A stretch of DNA of 64,000 bases from Plesiomonas shigelloides (GTDB taxonomy: Bacteria > Pseudomonadota > Gammaproteobacteria > Enterobacterales > CAMTGL01). A program made the position numbers and the translations under genes. Below the pieces are notes generated by a model, which made no database searches, had not been told where the DNA came from, and saw only the letters and a program-made list of their open reading frames with translations. Every line of letters begins with the position of its first letter. Within the stretch, counting starts at the first letter, position 1. The stretch is taken from contig NZ_LT575468.1 in the NCBI RefSeq assembly GCF_900087055.1, forward strand, positions 930,001-994,000, written 5' to 3'. Below are positions 37,779 to 51,838 of the stretch, piece by piece.

Positions 37779-37796
37779 AACCGTCAGGGGTCAGTG

Positions 37797-39377
37797 TTGA
37801 AGATCAAACGTTTTTTTGCCAAAGACATGCGCGAAGCACTGGAGCAGGTGAAAGAGCATCTGGGTCCGGATGCCGTCATCATGTCCAATAAGAAAGTGGC
37901 AGGCGGGGTTGAGATTGTAGCCGCGTTTGATGACGCCGCTTCCGCCGCGCCGGTCAGCCGGCAGGATGACAATGAAGCCATCAAGCGTGAGCTGGTTAGC
38001 CAGCTGACCGCTGCGCGCAAGCGACTGATGGAAGAGGGCAAGGGGCTTAAGCCGGGCGCAACATCTGCGCAGCCGGGTTTTGGCTATGCGCCAGCGAATA
38101 ATCGCGCACCAGCTGCGGACAGCGCACCGTCATCCTTGCCATCGTTTTATGCCCGTGGTCGTGAGCAAGACGACGCACCGGCGGACTCCCTGAGTGCCTT
38201 GCTGGATCGCCAGCAGCGTTTTCGCCAAGAAGGCCGACCGGATAGCCAAAGTCAGGCGGCGGGGATGCCTAATTCGCTTGGCAGCAACGCCGGCCAAGGC
38301 GCGGTAGGCAGCGCGGCGCGCCATGATGCGAGCCGTCAGGCGAGTACTGATGCGCCTGTGAACGGTGGCGCGCGCTACGCCAACCTTGATCCACTTTCCA
38401 ATACCGAATCGCGCCCGCGCTCACGCTCACAAGAAAATCAGCGCGCCCTTGAGCAGATGCGCAGTGAGATGCAGTCTATCCGCCGGTTGCTGGAGCATCA
38501 GGTCTCGAACCTGATGTGGCAGGAGATGGAGCGCAAAGAGCCGGTACGCGCCATGCTGATTGACCGTCTGCTGAAGATGGGCTTTCCCGATAATCTGGCG
38601 GAACAGCTGGTGGGTTATATCCCAGAAAAGACCGAATTAACGCAAGCGTGGTCGTTGGTGCTGGAGCTGCTGACCGATCAGCTGATGATCTCGGATGACA
38701 ATTTGCTCAGCCGCGGCGGCGTGGTTGCGCTGGTTGGCCCGACAGGCGTAGGTAAAACCACCACCATCGCCAAGCTGGCAGCGCGCTATGCCATGGAGTA
38801 CGGCGCGGAGCATATCGCCTTGGTGACCACCGACTCCTACCGTATTGGTGCCCATGAACAATTGGCCACCTATGGACGAATTTTAGGCTGTCCGGTGCGG
38901 GCGGCTAAAGATGCGGACGAACTGGCCGCTGTATTATATCAGCTGCGGCATAAACACTTTGTCCTGCTGGATACGGCCGGTATGGGTCAGCGCGATTTGC
39001 GCCTGACAGAACAGCTGAACACGCTGATGCAGACCCAAGGCGAACGTATCCGGAGCCTGCTGGTATTACCGGCCACCGCGCAGCGCAGTGTGCTGCAAGA
39101 AACGGTGGAACATTTTCGGCGCATCCCCCTCTCCGGCACCATTTTAACCAAGCTGGATGAGAGCTTAAGTTTGGGAGAGGTAATGAGCGTTACGATTCAA
39201 AACGCCTTACCTATCAGTTACATCACTGACGGGCAGCGGGTGCCGGAAGATATCCGGATTGCCAGTCGGGAGAACTTAGTGAAACGGGCGGCAGAATTGT
39301 TGGATAAGGACATCTCTGTACAGCATTTTTGGACGAGCGAGCGTGCTCAGCCTCAGGCAGCGGACCTCTATGAGTAA
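37797..39377 (+). CDS. flhF: Polar flagellum placement GTPase FlhF
   Basis: FlhF (526 aa) is the SRP-type GTPase that places the flagellum at the pole. It has the B domain start MKIKRFFAKDMREALEQVKE, a long variable linker (about 65-210), then NG domains with the P loop GPTGVGKTTTIAKLAARYAM, TTDSYRIGAHEQL, LLDTAGMGQRD and ILTKLDESLSLG. The start is TTG at 37797 with AGGGG 6 bp upstream; a GTG one codon earlier is the alternative. Its presence with FlhG defines a polar system. It overlaps flhG by 8 bp. Confidence 0.95.
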   Translation: MKIKRFFAKDMREALEQVKEHLGPDAVIMSNKKVAGGVEIVAAFDDAASAAPVSRQDDNEAIKRELVSQLTAARKRLMEEGKGLKPGATSAQPGFGYAPANNRAPAADSAPSSLPSFYARGREQDDAPADSLSALLDRQQRFRQEGRPDSQSQAAGMPNSLGSNAGQGAVGSAARHDASRQASTDAPVNGGARYANLDPLSNTESRPRSRSQENQRALEQMRSEMQSIRRLLEHQVSNLMWQEMERKEPVRAMLIDRLLKMGFPDNLAEQLVGYIPEKTELTQAWSLVLELLTDQLMISDDNLLSRGGVVALVGPTGVGKTTTIAKLAARYAMEYGAEHIALVTTDSYRIGAHEQLATYGRILGCPVRAAKDADELAAVLYQLRHKHFVLLDTAGMGQRDLRLTEQLNTLMQTQGERIRSLLVLPATAQRSVLQETVEHFRRIPLSGTILTKLDESLSLGEVMSVTIQNALPISYITDGQRVPEDIRIASRENLVKRAAELLDKDISVQHFWTSERAQPQAADLYE

Positions 39378-40260
39378 TGCAGTTTTAAATGATCAAGCCA
39401 GCGGTTTACGAAGTCTGGTACAGCCGGCCAAAACCAAGGTTATCGCCGTTACTGGTGGTAAAGGTGGTGTAGGGAAAAGCAACATCACCTTAAACATGGC
39501 GGTAGCTATGGCCCGTAAAGGACTGCGGGTAATGATTTTTGATGCCGACTTAAGTCTGGCTAATGTCGATCTGCTGCTCGGGATCCGAGTGGGGCGTAAC
39601 CTGTCACATGTGCTGGCAGGTTTGTGCGATCTGGAAGATATCATCGTGGAAGGGCCATACGGCCTGAAGGTGATCCCCGCATCGCCGGGTACCCAGTCGA
39701 TGACCGATTTGTCGGAGGCGCAGCACGCCGGTTTGATCCGCGCGTTTAGCTCGCTGCAAGATCAGGTCGACGTACTGCTGATTGATACCGCGGCGGGGAT
39801 CTCTGACATGGTGATGAGCTTCTCGCGCGCGGCGCAAGACGTGCTGGTTACCGTGTGTGATGAGCCAACCTCAATTGCGGATGCGTATGCCCTGATGAAG
39901 GTGCTCAACCGTCAGCATGGCCTGACCCGGTTTAAGATTGTCGCCAACATGGTGCGCAGTTACCGCGAAGGCTTAGATTTATTCAGCAAACTGAGTCGGG
40001 TAACTGACCGTTTTCTGGATGCCAGCTTAGAGCTGGTGGCCTGCATCCCACTGGATGAACATGTCCGGTTGGCGGTGCGTAAGCAAAAAGTGGTGGTGGA
40101 TGCGTACCCGCAATCGCCGGCTGCGTTGGCCTTGAACACCTTGGCCCAGCGCGCCAGCAGTTGGCCGGCACCGAACCACCCGACAGGACATCTCGAGTTT
40201 TTCGTCGAGCGCTTATTGCGCCGTCCCGTCATGATACGGGAGGAAGAGTGTCGTGAGTAA
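39370..40260 (+). CDS. flhG: Flagellar number regulator FlhG (FleN), MinD-like ATPase
   Basis: FlhG (296 aa) limits flagella number and in related species inhibits FlrA. It has the deviant Walker A KGGVGKSNITLNMAVAMARK, VMIFDADLSLANVDLLLGIR, DVLLIDTAAGISDMVMSFSR and the FKIVANMVRSYREGLDLF segment. The N-terminal DQASGLR motif, used by FlhG to stimulate FlhF, is intact near residue 8. The ATG at 39370 lies inside the end of flhF. Confidence 0.95.
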   Translation: MSNAVLNDQASGLRSLVQPAKTKVIAVTGGKGGVGKSNITLNMAVAMARKGLRVMIFDADLSLANVDLLLGIRVGRNLSHVLAGLCDLEDIIVEGPYGLKVIPASPGTQSMTDLSEAQHAGLIRAFSSLQDQVDVLLIDTAAGISDMVMSFSRAAQDVLVTVCDEPTSIADAYALMKVLNRQHGLTRFKIVANMVRSYREGLDLFSKLSRVTDRFLDASLELVACIPLDEHVRLAVRKQKVVVDAYPQSPAALALNTLAQRASSWPAPNHPTGHLEFFVERLLRRPVMIREEECRE

Positions 40261-40975: not shown

Positions 40976-41029
40976 GAAGCGGCACGTTTTATTCACTCAA
41001 TTGAGCACTACACCTCATTGGAGGCTACT

Positions 41030-41413
41030 TTGGACAAAGATATCAAAATCCTTATCGTTGACGACTTCTCTACGATGAGACGCATCATTAAGAACCTGCT
41101 GCGCGATCTGGGATTTAACAATACCCATGAAGCGGATGACGGTACTACCGCCTTACCAATGCTGCGCAACGGCGATTTTGATTTTGTCGTAACCGACTGG
41201 AACATGCCGGGTATGCAGGGTATTGACCTGCTGAAAACCATCCGCGCCGATGCCGATCTTAAGCATCTGCCGGTATTGATGGTGACCGCAGAAGCCAAGC
41301 GTGAACAGATTATCGAAGCGGCGCAAGCGGGCGTTAACGGTTACATCGTTAAACCGTTCACTGCGGCGACCTTGAAAGAGAAACTAGACAAAATTTTCGT
41401 GCGGATCCAGTAA
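41030..41413 (+). CDS. cheY: Chemotaxis response regulator CheY
   Basis: CheY (127 aa) binds FliM when phosphorylated. Asp11-Asp12, phosphoacceptor Asp56 ([10 protein letters not shown]), Thr86 (VTAEAK) and Lys108 (IVKPF) are all present. The start is TTG at 41030 with TGGAGG 5 bp upstream; a TTG at 41018 overlaps that ribosome binding site and is unlikely. A TTG start on a highly used signalling gene is unusual. Confidence 0.96.
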
Positions 41414-41437: not shown

Positions 41438-42163
41438 ATGATCACGCTCGAACAAGCCAAAGAGCTGGTGGCACTGCTGGAAAATGGTCAGCAGGAAGAA
41501 GCCAACCAGATCGTCCAGATGTTAGCGTCGCAAAGCTATAACACCCTGTTCAATGAAGTGGGCAAAGTGACGCGGGTACTGCACAGCGGCCTGTCAGAAT
41601 TCAGATTAGACCCACGCCTGTCGCAACTGACCCAGCAGGATTTGCCGGATGCACAAGGCCGCTTGAATTACGTGGTTAGCATGACCGAAACGGCAGCCAA
41701 CCGCACCATGGATGCGGTCGATGCGGCGTTCCCCATTGCGGACAGCTTGGCGGAGCGAACCGGTGCCATTTTACCGGTGTGGCAGAAGCTGTTTAACCGC
41801 GAAATGGAGCTGGGGGAATTTAAGTCTCTGTGTCTGGAGCTGGATGAATTCCTCAAGTCGACCGAACAGCAAAGCGATCAGTTGCGTAGCCAGCTGACCG
41901 AAATCTTGATGTCGCAAGACTTCCAGGATCTGACCGGCCAGATTATCCGTCGTGTGACTGGGCTGGTGGGTGAGGTGGAAGAGCACCTGATCAACATCAT
42001 GAAGTCGTTCGGGATGACTGAGGTCGAGAATCCGTTGCAAGAGCAAGATCTGCGCGCGCAGGCCATTTGTGCCGAAGGCCCGATCCATGATCGCGAAAAA
42101 CGCGCAGATGTGGTTCAAAGTCAGGATGACGTGGACGATCTGCTCTCTAGCTTAGGCTTTTAA
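41438..42163 (+). CDS. cheZ: CheY phosphatase CheZ
   Basis: CheZ (241 aa) dephosphorylates CheY-P. The long helical hairpin and catalytic region are clear: LMSQDFQDLTGQIIRRVTGL, with the catalytic Gln in QDLTGQ. The C-terminal CheY-binding peptide is DDVDDLLSSLGF. CGGAAGAG precedes the ATG. Presence of CheZ here is typical of Vibrio-type polar clusters. Confidence 0.96.
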   Translation: MITLEQAKELVALLENGQQEEANQIVQMLASQSYNTLFNEVGKVTRVLHSGLSEFRLDPRLSQLTQQDLPDAQGRLNYVVSMTETAANRTMDAVDAAFPIADSLAERTGAILPVWQKLFNREMELGEFKSLCLELDEFLKSTEQQSDQLRSQLTEILMSQDFQDLTGQIIRRVTGLVGEVEEHLINIMKSFGMTEVENPLQEQDLRAQAICAEGPIHDREKRADVVQSQDDVDDLLSSLGF

Positions 42164-42219
42164 GCCCGGCGTCAATCCGTCGCTTATTAGATATTCAGAA
42201 TCATTTTCAGGGGCAAGTG

Positions 42220-44439
42220 ATGAGTTTTGAACTAGACGAAGACATTCTGCAGGATTTTCTGATTGAAGCCGGTGAGATCATCGAGCGTCTGTCAGAGCAG
42301 CTGGTAGAGCTGGAACAACAGCCGAATGACAAAGACCTGCTGAATGCCATCTTCCGCGGCTTTCATACGGTCAAAGGGGGCGCAGGTTTCCTGTCCCTGA
42401 CATCACTGGTTGACACCTGTCACGGCGCTGAAAATGTGTTTGACGTTCTGCGTAACGGTAAGCGACAGATTGACTCGGCGCTGATGGATGTCATTTTACA
42501 AGCACTGGATACCGTGGTGGCGCAGTTCCAGCAAGTGCAAAACGGCGAAGAGCCGGTACCGGCTGCACCTGAGCTGCTGGAAGCCTTGCATCAACTGTGT
42601 GAAGAGCCGACTGCCGCGCCGCAAGTGGTGCCAGAGCCTGTCGCCGCTCCGGTGGCTCCGGCTGCCGATGCCGAAGCGCTGCTGATGGCCGAAATGAATG
42701 CACTGGCCCAAATGCAAGCGGCTAGCGAGCCACCGGCTGCGCCGCAGACCTTCGGTATCGACGACATTTCCGACGATGAGTTTGAACGCCTGCTCGACGC
42801 CCTGCACGGCGAAGGCAAAGGCCCGAGCGCGTCAGCGGAAGTAGCGTTAGCACCAGCCACTGCGGCACCGGCCGCAGTAACAACCGAGAGCGCGCCTGCT
42901 GCGAGCAGCGACGCCATCTCTGATGACGAATTTGAACGCCTGCTGGATGACCTGCACGGTGTTGGCAAAGGCCCTGCGGCTACCGCCACCCGCGCACCGG
43001 CCACGGCCAGCAGTGACGAAATCTCCGATGACGAATTCGAGCGTCTGCTCGATGATTTGCACGGTGCCGGTAAAGGCCCTGCGGTCACCCGTTTACCAGC
43101 TGCATCCGCCAGTGCTGCACCGGTAGCGCCAGCTGCGCCGGCCGCTGTTGCAACAGCACCGACCCCAGCACCAGCCTCAGTGCCGAATGTGGCTCGGGAA
43201 GAAAGTGCGCCAGCAGCCCCTGTGGCTGCGGCGGCCAGTAAAGCGCCAGCGTCTAACGCCGTGCAACCGGAAACCACTTTGCGCGTGGATACCAAGACCC
43301 TCGACGACATCATGAACATGGTGGGCGAGCTGGTACTGGTGCGTAACCGCCTGATCAGCCTTGGCATCAATAGCGATGACGAAGAGATGTCCAAAGCGTG
43401 CGCCAACCTCGATGTGGTGACCGCTGATCTGCAAGGCGCCGTGATGAAAACCCGCATGCAGCCAATCCGTAAGGTATTTGGCCGCTTCCCGCGCGTGGTA
43501 CGCGACTTGGCCCGTAGCCTGAAAAAAGAGGTGGTACTGGAGCTGAGTGGGGAAGACACCGATCTGGATAAAAACTTGGTCGAAGCGCTGGCCGATCCGT
43601 TGGTGCACTTGGTGCGTAACGCGGTGGACCACGGCATCGAAATGCCGGATGTCCGCGTACAAGCGGGTAAACCGGCGCAAGGTAAAGTGCGTCTGGCCGC
43701 TTCCCAAGAAGGTGACCATATCCTGCTGATCATCGAAGATGATGGCGCGGGGATGGATCCCGAAAAACTGCGTGGGATCGCCGTTAATCGCGGCATGATG
43801 GACGCCGATGCCGCCGCTCGCCTGAGTGACAATGAAGCCTACGCGCTGATTTTTGCGCCGGGCTTCTCGACCAAAAAAGAAATTTCCGACATCTCCGGCC
43901 GTGGCGTGGGGATGGACGTGGTGAAAACCAGTATCACCAAACTTAACGGTGCCATTCACATTGATTCCAGCAAAGGGCGCGGTACCCGCTTGGAAATCAA
44001 AGTGCCGTTGACGCTGGCTATCCTGCCAACTCTGATGGTTGGCGTATCGAATCAAACCTTCGCGCTGCCGCTGGCGAGCGTGAATGAAATTTTCCATCTG
44101 GATCTGAGCAAAACCAATTGTGTGGATGGTCAGTTGACCGTGATCGTGCGTAACAAAGCCATCCCACTGTTTTACTTACAGGACTGGCTGGCGAAAACCC
44201 GCGGCGAATGCCAGCAGGAGCGTCCGCAGTTCGGCCATGTGGTGATTGTTCAGATTGCCCATCAGCGTATCGGTTTTGTGGTCGATACCCTGATCGGACA
44301 GGAAGAAGTGGTGATTAAGGCGCTGGATAAATTCCTGCAAGGAACGCCGGGCATGGCCGGTGCCACCATCACCAGTGACGGCGGAATCGCTTTGATTCTG
44401 GATGTACCGGGTCTGCTTAAACATTACACCCATCGCTGA
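42220..44439 (+). CDS. cheA: Chemotaxis histidine kinase CheA
   Basis: CheA (739 aa) is the chemotaxis sensor kinase. P1/HPt holds His49 (FHTVKGGAGFLSLTSLVDTC). Residues about 125-350 are an Ala/Pro-rich linker without a recognisable P2 fold but with three copies of ISDDEFERLLD-x-LHG-x-GKGP (182-202, 232-252, 267-287). P3 (TTLRVDTKTLDDIMNMVGEL), P4 ATPase (LVHLVRNAVDHGIEMPDVR; DDGAGMDPEKLR; SGRGVGMDVV) and the P5 CheW-like domain (about 600-735) follow. The ATG at 42220 with AGGGGC upstream is preferred to the GTG one codon earlier. Confidence 0.96.
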   Translation: MSFELDEDILQDFLIEAGEIIERLSEQLVELEQQPNDKDLLNAIFRGFHTVKGGAGFLSLTSLVDTCHGAENVFDVLRNGKRQIDSALMDVILQALDTVVAQFQQVQNGEEPVPAAPELLEALHQLCEEPTAAPQVVPEPVAAPVAPAADAEALLMAEMNALAQMQAASEPPAAPQTFGIDDISDDEFERLLDALHGEGKGPSASAEVALAPATAAPAAVTTESAPAASSDAISDDEFERLLDDLHGVGKGPAATATRAPATASSDEISDDEFERLLDDLHGAGKGPAVTRLPAASASAAPVAPAAPAAVATAPTPAPASVPNVAREESAPAAPVAAAASKAPASNAVQPETTLRVDTKTLDDIMNMVGELVLVRNRLISLGINSDDEEMSKACANLDVVTADLQGAVMKTRMQPIRKVFGRFPRVVRDLARSLKKEVVLELSGEDTDLDKNLVEALADPLVHLVRNAVDHGIEMPDVRVQAGKPAQGKVRLAASQEGDHILLIIEDDGAGMDPEKLRGIAVNRGMMDADAAARLSDNEAYALIFAPGFSTKKEISDISGRGVGMDVVKTSITKLNGAIHIDSSKGRGTRLEIKVPLTLAILPTLMVGVSNQTFALPLASVNEIFHLDLSKTNCVDGQLTVIVRNKAIPLFYLQDWLAKTRGECQQERPQFGHVVIVQIAHQRIGFVVDTLIGQEEVVIKALDKFLQGTPGMAGATITSDGGIALILDVPGLLKHYTHR
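42763..43080 (+). repeat. Triplicated acidic motif in CheA linker
   Basis: Three 63-bp coding units at 42763-42825, 42913-42975 and 43018-43080 encode almost identical 21-residue peptides. They differ at one or two positions (ALHGEG, DLHGVG, DLHGAG). The spacers are Ala/Pro/Thr-rich. Synonymous differences show that the copies are not very recent. Confidence 0.9.
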
Positions 44440-44519
44440 GGACTTGGGGCCAGCGCGCGCTGGCCTTCATCCCTGCCGTCATAACGACCCGAAAAAAGAG
44501 ATAAAAAAGTAGAGGGATA

Positions 44520-45653
44520 ATGGGAATCAAAGTATTAGTTGTTGATGACTCGGTATTTTTCCGTCGCCGTGTCAGTGAGATCCTGAACAGTCATCCACAG
44601 CTGGAAGTGATTGATACCGCTAACAACGGCAAAGAAGCGCTCGAAAAAGTGCAGCAGTTGCGCCCTGATGTCGTCACCATGGACATCGAAATGCCGGTGA
44701 TGAACGGCATTGATGCGGCACGGGAAATTATGCGGGTGCGGCCAACGCCGATCCTGATGTTCTCTTCTTTGACCCATGAGGGTGCCAAAGCCACGCTGGA
44801 TGCGTTGGACGCCGGTGCCGTCGATTTCCTGCCGAAGAAATTTGAAGATATCGCCCGCGATCGGGAAGAGGCGATTACCTTGCTGCAACAGCGGGTGATC
44901 TCTATCTCTCGTCATCGGGTGCGTCCTCTGCTCAGTCAGCGTCCAGCGACCAGCAGTTTGAGCGCGAGCCGCACGCCAGCGACCAGCAACAGCGCGACAC
45001 CGCTGCGTGCCGCGGCGCCTGCTGCGGAGAACCGTCCGGTGCGTCCGGCGGCGCTGAATACCCGCCGTAGTGGCAAGGTGTATCAGTTGGTGGCGATCGG
45101 CACTTCAACCGGTGGTCCGGTTGCGCTGCAAAATATCCTGACTAAATTGCCGGGTAATTTCCCGCATCCAATTTTGCTGATCCAGCACATGCCCGCGACC
45201 TTTACCGCGGCGTTTGCCAGCCGTCTGAACAACTTGTGTCAGATTAACGTCAAAGAAGCGGCAGACGGTGATGTGGTGCAACCGGGTACCGCTTATCTGG
45301 CGCCGGGTGGCAAGCAGATGGTGCTGGATGGCCGTCCGGGGGCGATGCGCATTCGGATCCTCGATGGCGGTGAGCGCATGAACTACAAGCCGTGCGTGGA
45401 TATCACCTTTGCCTCGTGTGCCCGTCAATATCGTGACAAAGTTCTGGCGGTTGTGCTGACCGGTATGGGCGCCGATGGTCGCGATGGCGCCAAACTGCTG
45501 CATGAGCAGGGCGCAACTATCTGGGCACAGGATGAAGAGAGCTGCGTGGTATACGGTATGCCACAGGCCATTGTTAAAGCCGGTATTGCCGCGGAAATCC
45601 TGCCACTGGAGCGGGTTGCCCAGCGGATCATGATTGAAGTCGGTTGTGAATAA
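44520..45653 (+). CDS. cheB: Chemotaxis methylesterase CheB
   Basis: CheB (377 aa) demethylates chemoreceptors. The N-terminal receiver has [27 protein letters not shown] (phosphoacceptor Asp) and FLPKKF. The catalytic domain (about 190-375) has the Ser-His-Asp triad context: [31 protein letters not shown] and [16 protein letters not shown] Ser/Thr/Ala-rich linker (about 138-185) joins them. cheW follows at 17 bp with nothing between. Confidence 0.96.
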
Positions 45654-45670
45654 TCATTAAGGAATCAGCA

Positions 45671-46159
45671 ATGAATAGCAGCAGTGCTGTCGATACCGGC
45701 GAAAGCCGCGACAAAGTATTACAGTGGGTAACCTTCAATCTGGGCGAAGAAACCTACGGGGTTAATGTAATGCAGGTACGTGAAGTGCTGCGTTACAGCG
45801 AAATCGCGCCAGTGCCGGGCGCGCCATCTTACGTGCTGGGGATCATCAACCTGCGCGGTAACGTGGTGACCGTGATTGATACGCGCTCTCGTTTTGGCCT
45901 GTATCCAAGTGATGTGACCGACAATACCCGTATTGTGATCATCGAAACCGAACAGCAAGTGATCGGTATTCTGGTCGACAGCGTGGCAGAAGTGGTTTAC
46001 CTGCGTGCATCAGAAATCGACAAAACGCCAAATGTGGGCACCGATGAGAGCTCGCGCTTCATTCAGGGCGTCTCCAACCGCGATGGAGAGTTGTTAATTC
46101 TGGTAGATTTGAATAAATTACTGACCAACGATGAGTGGGATGAGTTGAGTGGTCTGTAA
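45671..46159 (+). CDS. cheW: Chemotaxis coupling protein CheW
   Basis: CheW (162 aa) couples receptors to CheA. It has QWVTFNLGEETYGVNVMQVR, EVLRYSEIAPVPGAPSYVLG, IINLRGNVVTVIDTRSRFGL and the C-terminal ELLILVDLNKLL. Length and order match polar-flagellum CheW. It overlaps the next gene (TAATG). Confidence 0.96.
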   Translation: MNSSSAVDTGESRDKVLQWVTFNLGEETYGVNVMQVREVLRYSEIAPVPGAPSYVLGIINLRGNVVTVIDTRSRFGLYPSDVTDNTRIVIIETEQQVIGILVDSVAEVVYLRASEIDKTPNVGTDESSRFIQGVSNRDGELLILVDLNKLLTNDEWDELSGL

Positions 46160-46581
46160 TGATTGGATTAATGGTTGCCGTAGCGGTACTGAGTGTGGTC
46201 TGTGCCGGTCTGGCGTGGAGCCTGATTTCTCTGTGGCGGCAACATAAAACCATTCTGCGTCGGGTTGAGGCCAGCGAAGTATTGCTGAAGGCCGCCCGGC
46301 GTCAGTTTGATACGACCGGAAAAAGTATCGAAGAGCTGCGTGGCGGCTTTATCGGTCTGGGAAATGAACTGCATCAGCTGGTGGATAAGCAGGAGCAGTT
46401 TAGTGTCAAACTGAATGAAGTGACCTATATCGATCCTGAGCATCGCCTGTATAGCCGTGCCACCAAGCTGGCGGAAATGGGCGCCGGTCTGGATGAGCTG
46501 ATGCAAGAGTGCGAGCTGCCTAAGGCCGAAGCGGAATTGTTGCTGAACTTACAGCGGCAGATGAAAAATCGTCGCACCTAA
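46159..46581 (+). CDS. DUF2802 membrane-anchored protein, end of che operon
   Basis: A 140-aa protein with an N-terminal membrane anchor (MVAVAVLSVVCAGLAWSLIS, about 4-23) and a cytoplasmic coiled-coil part (ASEVLLKAARRQFDTTGKSI; LNEVTYIDPEHRLYSRATKL; CELPKAEAELLLNLQ). It matches the DUF2802 family that regularly follows cheW in polar flagellar loci. Molecular role not established. Confidence 0.82.
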   Translation: MIGLMVAVAVLSVVCAGLAWSLISLWRQHKTILRRVEASEVLLKAARRQFDTTGKSIEELRGGFIGLGNELHQLVDKQEQFSVKLNEVTYIDPEHRLYSRATKLAEMGAGLDELMQECELPKAEAELLLNLQRQMKNRRT

Positions 46582-46801: not shown

Positions 46802-48319
46802 TCACTCGAGGGTAGGCATGGTGAAAGTGCCGCTATGTTGCTCCAAACGCACCCCCGCTGGCCAACGGCTGGTGATGGTTTTCATGCGGGTGTAGAAACG
46901 CACGCCGTCACTGCCATGCACATTCAATGGCCCAAACACTGAGCGCTTCCAGCCGCCAAAGCTGTGGAATGCCATTGGTACTGGAATGGGCACGTTAATT
47001 CCCACCATCCCCGCTTGCACTTGCTCACCAAACTGACGCGCGGTTTCGCCATCACGGGTGAAAATGGCCGTGCCGTTACCGTATTGGTGACGATTAATCA
47101 GCTCCAGCGCGGTGTGATAATCGGGGGCGCGCACCACGCACAGCACCGGCCCGAAGATCTCCTCTTGATAGATCCGCATTTCTGGCGTAACCCGATCAAA
47201 CAAGGTCGGGCCGACAAAAAAACCCTGCTCATGACCGGCGACGTGGAAAGCTCGGCCATCGATACACAAGGTCGCGCCTTGTTCTACACCCGAATCGATA
47301 TAGTGCAGGATAGACGCGCGGTGCTGGGCGGAGATCACCGGTCCCATATCATTTTCGGGCTCACCAGCCGGTAAAATGCCTGGGCCGACGCGCATTGTGG
47401 CAATGCGCGCTTTGACGCCGGCGATCAGGGCATCGGCTACATCATCTCCAACCGCTACCGCCACCGACAGCGCCATGCAGCGTTCACCCGCCGCGCCAAA
47501 TGCTGCGCCCATAATGGCGTTCACCGTCATATCCAGATCGGCATCCGGCATCACGATACAGTGGTTTTTCGCGCCGCCCAGCGCCTGACAGCGTTTACCG
47601 TGCGCCGAGGCTACCGAGTAAATGTACTCGGCAATCGGTGTTGAACCGACAAAACTCACCGCTTGAATGCGCGGATCGGTCAGCAGAACATCCACCGCTT
47701 CTTTATCGCCGTTCACTACGTTGAATACACCATCGGGCAGACCGGCTTCTTTTAGCAGTTCGGCCAGTGCTAGCGCCAGTGACGGATCTTTTTCCGAGGG
47801 CTTGAGAATAAAGGTATTGCCGGTAGCCAGTGCAATCGGGAACATCCACATTGGCACCATGGCAGGGAAGTTAAACGGCGTGATCCCGGCGCATACCCCG
47901 AGCGGTTGCATCAGTGAATGGCTATCGACCCCGGTTCCCACATTGGCCGAGTGTTCGCCTTTTTGCAGATGCGGAATACCACAGGCAAACTCGACCACTT
48001 CTAAGCCGCGCACCAACTCGCCATGGGCATCGGACAGGATCTTACCGTGCTCTTCTGAGATCAGGCGTGCCAGCCGGTCTTTGTGCTGTTCGAGTAAGGC
48101 TTTAAAGCGGAACATCACGCGGGCACGGCGCAGTGGTGGCGTGCGTGACCATGCAGGGAAGGCGGCATCGGCGACACTGATCGCGTGTTCGACTTCAGCC
48201 ACGGTACTGAGGGCGACCTGCCGCACCGGCTCACCGAGTGCCGGATTAAACACAGGGGCTAAACGTTCGCTGCGGCTCGCGGTCAGTTGGCCGCCGATAA
48301 AGTTGTGTACGATATCCAT
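46802..48319 (-). CDS. iolA: Methylmalonate-semialdehyde dehydrogenase (acylating) IolA
   Basis: IolA/MmsA (505 aa) turns malonate semialdehyde into acetyl-CoA and CO2 with NAD and CoA, the last step of inositol breakdown. It starts MDIVHNFIGGQLTASRSERL and has GVCAGITPFNFPAMVPMWMF, ILKPSEKDPSLALALAELL, VSFVGSTPIAEYIY and the catalytic cysteine in AAFGAAGERCMALSVAVAVG, the MmsA form of the ALDH active site. The ATG at 48319 is preceded by a purine-rich GAGAGAGA; an in-frame ATG 42 bp upstream lacks family sequence. It is divergent from iolR. Confidence 0.95.
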   Translation of the reverse strand: MDIVHNFIGGQLTASRSERLAPVFNPALGEPVRQVALSTVAEVEHAISVADAAFPAWSRTPPLRRARVMFRFKALLEQHKDRLARLISEEHGKILSDAHGELVRGLEVVEFACGIPHLQKGEHSANVGTGVDSHSLMQPLGVCAGITPFNFPAMVPMWMFPIALATGNTFILKPSEKDPSLALALAELLKEAGLPDGVFNVVNGDKEAVDVLLTDPRIQAVSFVGSTPIAEYIYSVASAHGKRCQALGGAKNHCIVMPDADLDMTVNAIMGAAFGAAGERCMALSVAVAVGDDVADALIAGVKARIATMRVGPGILPAGEPENDMGPVISAQHRASILHYIDSGVEQGATLCIDGRAFHVAGHEQGFFVGPTLFDRVTPEMRIYQEEIFGPVLCVVRAPDYHTALELINRHQYGNGTAIFTRDGETARQFGEQVQAGMVGINVPIPVPMAFHSFGGWKRSVFGPLNVHGSDGVRFYTRMKTITSRWPAGVRLEQHSGTFTMPTLE

Positions 48320-48625
48320 TCGGTTTCTCTCTCTGTCAGCAGGATCAAAGATGTCATGCAAAAAGCATAATGAAATATTTATTTCATTTAAACATAAAGT
48401 GATTTCATTATTCTGTTTTGTGATCCCGATGCCGTTCGGCAGACAGTAGGGTAGGCGGCGGCTTTTTTTTGTGTCTTAATTTATTCAAATCTTTCATAGA
48501 TATAGAATAACAGAACAGATATTCTATTCTTTATTACCAGCGTCCGCGCTTTTTCTGCGGTATCAGGGTGTTTCGCCATCGGTAAACATCGCTGCAGAGC
48601 TAAGGATATAACGGGGGAGACTCGC
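48320..48625. other. Divergent iolA-iolR intergenic region
   Basis: This A+T-rich 306-bp gap contains a GAAATATTTATTTC palindrome-like box near iolA (48372-48385) and an inverted repeat, ATAGAATA-N10-TATTCTAT (48502-48527), about 100 bp upstream of iolR. Both are candidate operators. No ORF is supported. Confidence 0.65.
48372..48386 (-). promoter_or_regulatory. Candidate IolR box upstream of iolA
   Basis: On the minus strand TGAAATAAATATTTC, 52 bp upstream of the iolA ATG. It is nearly identical to the boxes before iolD and iolC. Confidence 0.6.
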
Positions 48626-49471
48626 GTGAGCAGTGCCAAAAATTTTGCCGAATTGCAAGACCAAATCCGCGCCCGCTATGCAGAGCTGAGTAAGCGTCTG
48701 CAGCAGGTTGCCAAGTATGTGATTGATAATAAAAACACCGTGGCAATGCAGACGGTGGCGGTGATTGCTAAAGAAGCCGATGTGCCGCCTTCTACCTTGA
48801 TCCGGTTTGCCAATACCTTTGGCTTTAGCGGTTTCAATGAAATGAAACAGATATTTCGCCTAGATCTGGTCAAGGAAACCGCCAATTACACCGAGCGAGC
48901 ACGTCTGTTCCGGGAAATGGAAGGGGCCAGCGCCGCCGATCAACCGCACGATATTTTGCAAGAGTTCGCCCGCGCTAATGCGCAGGCATTGCAGCAGCTG
49001 GTGGTGCATACTCCCGCTGAGGAAATGCAGCGGGCAGTTGATCTGCTGGAGCAAGCTCAGACCATTTATGTCATCGGTTTGCGCCGCTCGTTCAGCGCCG
49101 CGGCTTATTTGCGCTATGCCTTGAGTCATCTGGAGCGTCGGGTGGTGTTGCTCGATGGCCTCGGTGGCATGCTGGCGGAGCAGCTTAATCTGATGGGCCG
49201 TGAGGATGTGGTGCTGTCGATCAGCTTCACGCCGTATGCCGAGGAGACGGTGATGGTCAGTGAAAAGGCCTCCCAAACCGGCGCACGCCAAATTGTGATC
49301 ACCGATAGTCAAATCAGTCCGTTAGCCTCACTGAGCGATGTGTGTTTCGTGGTTAAAGAAGCGCAAGTCGGCGCGTTTCGCTCGCAATCTGCCACCTTAT
49401 GTCTGCTGCAATCGCTGGCCGTGGGGTTGGCGTTTCAAACGTCCGGTCAAGATGTGGCCGCCTCGCTGTAA
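48626..49471 (+). CDS. iolR: RpiR-family transcriptional regulator of inositol genes IolR
   Basis: A 281-aa RpiR-type regulator: N-terminal HTH_6 (residues about 10-85; LSKRLQQVAKYVIDNKNTVA, and KEADVPPSTLIRFANTFGFS) and C-terminal SIS sugar-binding domain (about 130-260; TIYVIGLRRSFSAAAYLRYA). Gammaproteobacterial IolR proteins of this type repress iol genes until an inositol breakdown intermediate binds. It lies in the middle of the iol locus, divergent from iolA. The start is GTG at 48626 with GGGGGA upstream. Confidence 0.88.
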   Translation: MSSAKNFAELQDQIRARYAELSKRLQQVAKYVIDNKNTVAMQTVAVIAKEADVPPSTLIRFANTFGFSGFNEMKQIFRLDLVKETANYTERARLFREMEGASAADQPHDILQEFARANAQALQQLVVHTPAEEMQRAVDLLEQAQTIYVIGLRRSFSAAAYLRYALSHLERRVVLLDGLGGMLAEQLNLMGREDVVLSISFTPYAEETVMVSEKASQTGARQIVITDSQISPLASLSDVCFVVKEAQVGAFRSQSATLCLLQSLAVGLAFQTSGQDVAASL

Positions 49472-49618
49472 GTGAGCGTATCGCATGTTACCTCGCCGGT
49501 GGTGTTCGCCATCGGTGGGGCTGATCTTCTTCGATTTATTAGCACCGCTGGCATTGTTTTGTTTGTCTTGAGCTAGCGAGTGCTGTTTGCGCTGGGCGCG
49601 GTGTGGGCTCGGGGTTAC

Positions 49619-49684
<66 letters not shown>

Positions 49685-49771
49685 TTTTCGATTTCGTGCG
49701 TGGATGGCAGCGTGCTGCTTAACCGCATGCGGATCACACTCCGGCAATTTCATTTCGAATAAATCTTTAAA

Positions 49772-49785
49772 TGAAATAAATATTC
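49772..49785 (+). promoter_or_regulatory. Candidate IolR box upstream of iolD
   Basis: TGAAATAAATATTC, 118 bp upstream of the iolD ATG, identical over 14 bases to the box before iolC. Confidence 0.6.
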
Positions 49786-49903
49786 TATAAAGTAATCGTT
49801 ATGGAAATAATGCGAACAGCAAAGGCACCGGCTTGGCCGGAAAGCAGGCGCGCCGCCGTTATGCGGGCAGCGTGACGGTAGCAGGGAATCTGGAGTTGTG
49901 GCT

Positions 49904-51838
49904 ATGCGCACAGAGAGAATGACAACCGCACAGGCGCTGGTGAAATTTTTGAACCAGCAATATATCGACGTGGACGGCGTGGAAGAGAAGTTCGTACACG
50001 GGATCTTCACCATTTTCGGGCATGGTAACGTGCTGGGATTGGGGCAGGCGTTGGAGCAAGATGCCGGTGACTTACAGGTGTATCAAGGCTGCAATGAGCA
50101 AGGGATGGCGCACATCGCGCTCGGTTTTGCCAAACAGCACAAACGCCGTCGGATCTGTGCGGTTACCTCATCAGTAGGGCCGGGCGCGGCCAATATGGTG
50201 ACGGCCGCCGCGACAGCCACCGCCAACCGCCTGCCGATTTTGTTACTGCCTGGCGATCTGTTTGCGACCCGCCAGCCTGATCCGGTGTTGCAGCAGGTGG
50301 AGCAGTATCATGATGCCTCGATCAGCACCAACGACTGTTTCCGTCCGGTATCGCGCTATTGGGATCGCGTTTCGCGCCCAGAGCAGCTGATGAGTGCGAT
50401 GCTTAATGCCATGCGTGTGCTGACCGATCCGGCCGATACGGGCGCGGTTACGGTGTGTCTGCCGCAAGATGTGCAAGCCGAAGCCTATGATTTCCCCGAT
50501 TCTTTCTTTCGCAAGCGCGTGCACCGTTTGGAGCGCCGCCCGCCAACCGCGGCGATGCTGGATGATGCCCTGACTTTATTGCTATCAAAGAAAAAACCGC
50601 TGTTGGTGTGCGGTGGTGGGGTGCGTTACTCGCAGGCGCATGAGGCGTTTCGCCGTTTCGCCGAGTGCTTTGGCATTCCGTTTGCGGAAACGCAAGCGGG
50701 TAAAGGGGCGATCCCTGCCGATCACCCGCTCAACTGTGGCGGGCTGGGTACCACCGGTTGTTTGGCGGCCAATACCTTGGCGGCAGAAGCGGATTTGATT
50801 ATCGGGGTCGGAACCCGTTTCACTGATTTCACTACGGCATCAAAAAGCTTGTTCCGCCATCCACAGGTGGATTTTCTGACTATCAATATCGCGGCTTTTG
50901 ATGCCATGAAGCTCGATGCGGTGCCGGTGGTAGCTGATGCGCGCGCTGCGCTGCAAGCGCTGCATGGCGTGTTAGCGCCAACCGGCTATCAGGCCGCTTA
51001 TGGCAACGAGATTGCCCAAGCGAGAGCCGCGTGGGAGCAAGAGTGGCAACGCTTGGCTGCCATTGAGGTGGATGAGCAGTTTGTGCCGGAAGTGGCCGGT
51101 CAGCTCGATGATCGCCTGCCGGAGTATATGGATACCCTGCAAACCCATTTGACGCAAACCCGCGTGCTGGGGCTGTTAGACCAAGTCTTAGCACCGGATG
51201 CGATTGTGGTCGGCGCGGCCGGCTCGCTGCCAGGAGATTTGCAGCGCATGTGGCGACCGAAAGTGGCTGACACTTACCACATGGAGTACGGCTATTCGTG
51301 CATGGGTTATGAGATTGCCGCCGCGGTGGGCGCGAAGATCGCCGCTCCGCAGCAGCCGGTGTATGCTTTTGTCGGCGATGGCTCTTATCTGATGCTGCAT
51401 TCTGAGCTGCAAACGGCAGTACAAGAGGGGATCAAAATTACCGTGCTGCTGTTTGATAACGCCGGTTTTGGTTGCATCAATAACCTGCAAATGGGGCAGG
51501 GAATGGGCAGTTTCGGCACCGAAAACCGGCATCGCGATCCCCGTACTGGCCAGATGAGTGGGCCACTTGTGAAGGTGGACTTTGCGGCCAACGCCGCCAG
51601 TTATGGCTGCGTGAGTTATCGAGTGCACAATGAAGCCGAATTGTTGGCTGCATTGGCCGATGCCGCGCAGCAAACCGCGCCGGTGCTGATAGATATCAAA
51701 GTGCTGCCCAAAACCATGACCCACGGTTACGCCGCCTGGTGGCGCACCGGCACGGCGCAGGTGGCGGATAATCCGGCCATTGTGGCGGCGGCCGAGGATA
51801 TTCAGCAGGTGCTGCGTACGGTAGCGCGTCAATATTAA
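49904..51838 (+). CDS. iolD: 3D-(3,5/4)-trihydroxycyclohexane-1,2-dione hydrolase IolD
   Basis: IolD (644 aa) is the ThDP-dependent hydrolase that opens the inositol ring. It has the ThDP enzyme plan: N-terminal PYR domain ([37 protein letters not shown] with the catalytic Glu), a central domain ([20 protein letters not shown]), and the PP domain with the ThDP motif starting [16 protein letters not shown] and ending [12 protein letters not shown]. The ATG at 49904 has TGGAG 8 bp upstream. A 19-bp direct repeat spans its stop codon. Confidence 0.96.

Follow-up and report, generated by a model that had tools for sequence, protein, structure and literature searches.

Absence of ParC and ParP from the polar chemotaxis operon and genome of Plesiomonas, and conservation of a CheA linker motif

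In relatives of the water-borne gut bacterium Plesiomonas, ParC and ParP hold the chemical-sensing arrays at the cell pole. In Plesiomonas shigelloides, both genes are missing from the polar chemotaxis operon, and neither was recovered by profile searches of the whole genome. Because the loss is genuine, genome-wide and common to a second Plesiomonas species, the arrays in Plesiomonas cannot be tethered by ParC/ParP. The long linker of CheA, through which ParP might be bound in other genera, nevertheless keeps its conserved motifs.

The analysis was performed on a window of 64,000 nucleotides, positions 930,001-994,000 of the single-contig P. shigelloides genome (G000; 3,405,979 bp, 100% complete). 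The window shows the linkage of an F6-type polar operon, with cheYZAB and cheW accompanied by flhFG-fliA and DUF2802/fipA, and the flagellar and chemotaxis genes given here lie on the + strand. The polar flagellum site determinant flhF (37794-39377) is retained as an ORF of 527 aa; the FlhF listed for strain 302-73 in Table 3 of PMC4481668 has the identical size. The gene flhG (39343-40260) encodes a MinD/ParA-type ATPase with Pfam ParA/CbiA and MinD-like matches. CheY (41018-41413) matched the NCBIfam CheY equivalog above its cut-off, and CheZ (41438-42163; Pfam CheZ, 2e-72) ends in QDDVDDLLSSLGF, a C-terminus that is conserved in relatives. For cheA (42217-44439), Hpt, H-kinase_dim, HATPase and CheW-like domains, but no P2, were recognised with Pfam. 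It is followed by cheB (44520-45653; Pfam CheB_methylest, 4e-67), cheW (45671-46159), which encodes the genome's sole single-domain CheW, and fipA (46159-46581; Pfam DUF2802, 2.7e-21).

In other genera, parC-parP, in some relatives together with motC-motD, are found between cheB and cheW, as comparison with loci collected across the order and with 80 named loci showed. In the window this position is reduced to a junction of 17 bp (45654-45670), which carries an AAGGA ribosome-binding site. This agrees with the original prediction that cheW begins 17 bp after cheB with no remnant of either gene, whereas DUF2802 is retained. The gene order itself is already known: the polar flagella region I of strain 302-73, published in 2015, likewise has cheB adjacent to cheW (Merino et al., 2015; PMC4481668). 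According to its gene lists, CheW (162 aa), CheB (377 aa), CheZ (241 aa), FliA (240 aa), FlhF (527 aa) and FlhA (698 aa) are equal in size to the proteins of the window, and judging by these sizes 302-73 is the same species. The gene-list passages of that paper contain no remark on missing parC or parP.

A whole-genome search for ParC and ParP homologues had been set beforehand as the test of their absence. Profiles were built from ParC and ParP proteins of loci across the order and run on the whole genome (3.41 Mb). ParP was not found: the best match, at 15 bits, was cheW itself, compared to ∼210-323 bits for genuine ParP. ParC was not found genome-wide either, with MinD as the best match at 48 bits, while in five comparators genuine ParC scored 427-440 bits and chromosomal ParA 180-195 bits. 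FlhG reached only 26 bits with the ParC profile. A ParC encoded elsewhere was rejected, as the ATPases present are MinD, Mrp-like, FlhG and BcsQ-like proteins only. Three proteins with a CheW domain are encoded in the genome (CheW, CheV and CheA), so that a further CheW-like adaptor was also rejected, CheV being the only additional one. The 20 chemoreceptors are accompanied by one each of CheA, CheW and CheV.

An assembly error or a strain-specific deletion could in principle give the same picture, and apart from general caution nothing speaks in its favour. The genome is a single contig of 3.41 Mb with a completeness of 100%, which argues against an assembly error. A deletion confined to this strain is contradicted by 302-73, in whose published gene list CheW of 162 aa adjoins CheB of 377 aa (PMC4481668), and by a second Plesiomonas species, in which no parC-parP lies between cheB and cheW. 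With an independent strain and an independent species showing the same arrangement, this explanation is refuted and was given a negligible probability.

The nearest relative of the window genome is an uncultured Plesiomonas sp. In the second Plesiomonas species (G010/L140), a metagenome-assembled genome (MAG) that is 75% complete and in which the cheB-cheW junction is covered, ParC and ParP are missing as well. The arrangement in loci across the order is cheB-(motC-motD)-parC-parP-cheW-DUF2802, and in 76 of the 80 named relatives cheB and cheW were separated by both genes, in line with the Vibrio-type order on which the original prediction was based. The other four comprise two loci cut at a contig end, the second Plesiomonas species and a Psychromonas MAG (L200). 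A DUF2802 match was obtained in 96 of the 148 genomes sampled from the order, and 92 of these 96 had a strong ParP. ParP was missing from the two Plesiomonas and from two further genomes, whose DUF2802 matches are weak and probably spurious. Since both Plesiomonas species are without ParP while 92 of the 96 DUF2802-positive genomes have it, the genomic comparison places the loss of parC and parP at the level of the genus.

The loss is distinctive within the order, but by the same kind of comparison it is not unique within the Gammaproteobacteria, because in the class-wide sample four genomes with an F6-type CheA (G157, G148, G169 and G159) had no recognisable ParP and one (G203) had ParC only. 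In the F6-type operon of the latter (L104), ParC lies directly between cheA and cheW, with no recognisable ParP. As a separate observation, parC-parP are missing between motD and cheW in L200, where ∼690 bp without a long ORF are found; this loss is possibly independent.

The DUF2802 gene corresponds to FipA, the partner of FlhF in polar flagellum formation and placement (PMC11620751). In the alignment, the window protein showed the FipA features: an N-terminal hydrophobic segment, one DUF2802 domain and the conserved Gly/Glu/Leu region. As FipA places flagella, its retention next to cheW is uninformative on the arrays and presents no paradox. The polar hub protein HubP/FimV is also kept, as an ORF of 1233 aa (TIGR03505, 4.7e-25; weak LysM match). 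Three client ATPases of HubP are described, ParA1, ParC and FlhG (PMC11620751), of which only FlhG is kept in Plesiomonas. Neither a ParB match nor the chromosomal ParA (ParA1) was found in the Plesiomonas genome, whereas both were present in all five comparators; the chromosome partition system typical of Vibrio, Aeromonas and relatives is therefore missing from this genome. The loss of parC/parP would then be one of two polar-hub cargo losses in the lineage, the other being that of chromosomal ParA/ParB. Presumably, HubP, FlhF, FlhG and FipA still place polar flagella in Plesiomonas. As a basal branch of the enterics (PMC8042155), Plesiomonas may record an intermediate in the dismantling of the polar hub, in which the chromosome and array cargo systems have been lost and the flagellar cargo has been retained.

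ParP binds CheA via the LID, which has been described as lying between P2 and P3 and as occurring only together with ParC/ParP (PMC7534058). Pfam found no P2 domain in four F6-type CheAs. In this CheA type, conservation in the long linker between P1 and P3 is confined to repeats of the motif I-[ST]-D-D-E-F-E-x-L-L-D-x-L-H-G. Because no other element of this linker is conserved, the motif is a likely candidate for the ParP-binding LID. The Plesiomonas CheA contains three copies of ISDDEFERLLD[AD]LHG (window 42766-43065): the first (42766-42810) reads ISDDEFERLLDALHG, and the second (42916-42960) and third (43021-43065) both read ISDDEFERLLDDLHG. Every F6-type CheA with a frame that extends into the linker had the motif, and 31 other CheAs from the Gammaproteobacteria all lacked it; five truncated or interrupted cheA frames (L065, L087, L091, L098 and L213) were not scorable. 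Every ParP-less F6 CheA in the sample keeps at least one copy. The CheA of L088 was not accepted as motif-less, since its two variant copies had been missed by a too strict pattern.

When 45 motif-core codons were compared between the two Plesiomonas species, 21 synonymous differences stood against 1 non-synonymous difference, while the linker outside the motif cores was barely alignable. These differences argue for strong purifying selection on the motif in the absence of ParP, assuming that ParP was already gone in the common ancestor. As the motif is strictly conserved although ParP is absent, it probably serves a ParP-independent role. In 52 genes of the window, the pattern [DEQN]-hydrophobic-[DE]-x-LL was found six times: three times in CheA, once at the CheZ C-terminus and twice elsewhere. 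FliM carries EIDALLH, and the CheA motif has the element hydrophobic-[DE]-x-L-L in common with the C-terminus of CheZ (DVDDLLSSLGF) and the N-terminus of FliM (EIDALL). The CheZ C-terminus and the FliM N-terminus are CheY-binding peptides, and because of this short likeness it is proposed that the motif docks CheY/CheB instead of the missing P2. It is further conceivable, and offered tentatively, that the supposedly ParP-specific LID motif, if it is the LID, serves the docking of response regulators in general, standing in for P2 in F6-type CheA, and was merely borrowed by ParP, so that Plesiomonas would naturally separate both functions.

No literature on array localisation in Plesiomonas was found. 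With the ParC/ParP tether excluded, the part of the original prediction that assumed another mode of array placement is a fair inference. In E. coli, the default route to the pole consists of stochastic nucleation, curvature and Tol-Pal, and TolB is present in the Plesiomonas genome. The preferred explanation, which we regard as moderately probable, combines loss of parC/parP without remnant, default array placement and a ParP-independent role of the CheA motif. Comparison of the two sampled Plesiomonas species suggests that parC and parP would have been lost before these split. HubP, FlhF, FlhG and FipA have stayed, and receptors, CheA and CheW would self-assemble into arrays that most likely reach the poles by the E. 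coli-like route. FlhF or the motors may bias the arrays toward the flagellated pole, as an effect of FlhF on chemoreceptor-array position has been reported in P. aeruginosa (PMC12410967). The retained linker motif would dock CheY/CheB in place of P2.

Alternatively, the arrays might now be tethered by some other protein, either unrelated or strongly diverged, or directly by HubP or FlhF, with the CheA motifs as docking site of the new tether. The retention of HubP, FlhF, FlhG and FipA, the influence of FlhF on array position in P. aeruginosa (PMC12410967) and the conservation of the motifs are all compatible with such a replacement. However, there is no CheW-like adaptor candidate besides CheW, CheV and CheA, and all scorable F6-type CheAs carry the motif whether or not ParP is present, which rather points to a shared function, for instance the docking of response regulators; a replacement tether is therefore considered rather unlikely.

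Lateral flagella had been proposed to have permitted the loss by making strictly polar arrays dispensable. P. shigelloides indeed makes functional lateral flagella (PMC4481668), but the rationale built on them is not supported. V. parahaemolyticus also has lateral flagella, and its polar arrays depend on ParC in swimmer as well as swarmer cells (PMC5090175), lateral motors have been described as non-chemotactic (PMC8042155), and among the 80 named loci Aeromonas and Vibrio diabolicus keep both parC and parP, which makes this cause very improbable. Multiple polar flagella were likewise rejected as cause of the loss. Aliivibrio fischeri is lophotrichous and its locus (L177) keeps both genes.

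Compared with known systems, Plesiomonas shares with Vibrio, Aeromonas and Shewanella the ParC/ParP-dependent type of F6 operon (flhA-flhF-flhG-fliA-cheY-cheZ-cheA-cheB-...-cheW-DUF2802) and a CheA of the same type with repeated linker motifs, but differs from them in that parC and parP are deleted without a homologue elsewhere in the genome. It resembles E. coli in having no ParC/ParP, whereas E. coli has no FlhF, FlhG or FipA and a different CheA with P2 (PMC11620751 and general knowledge). With P. aeruginosa it has FlhF-positioned polar flagella and an F6 chemotaxis system in common (PMC12410967); guidance of arrays by FlhF is a feature of P. aeruginosa and, by analogy, only putative for Plesiomonas. 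Plesiomonas thus represents a natural ParC/ParP-free form of a Vibrio-like polar motility system, which allows asking whether a dedicated tether is required for polar arrays and separates the ParP-binding role of the CheA linker from its other functions.

Downstream of fipA (window 46802-51838), genes resembling those of inositol catabolism were recognised by eye, including an aldehyde dehydrogenase, an RpiR-type regulator and an IolD-like protein. Directly 3' of the RpiR-type regulator gene lies a perfect 7-bp tandem repeat, TCTTCTG, in 9.6 copies (window 49619-49685), which could allow phase variation.
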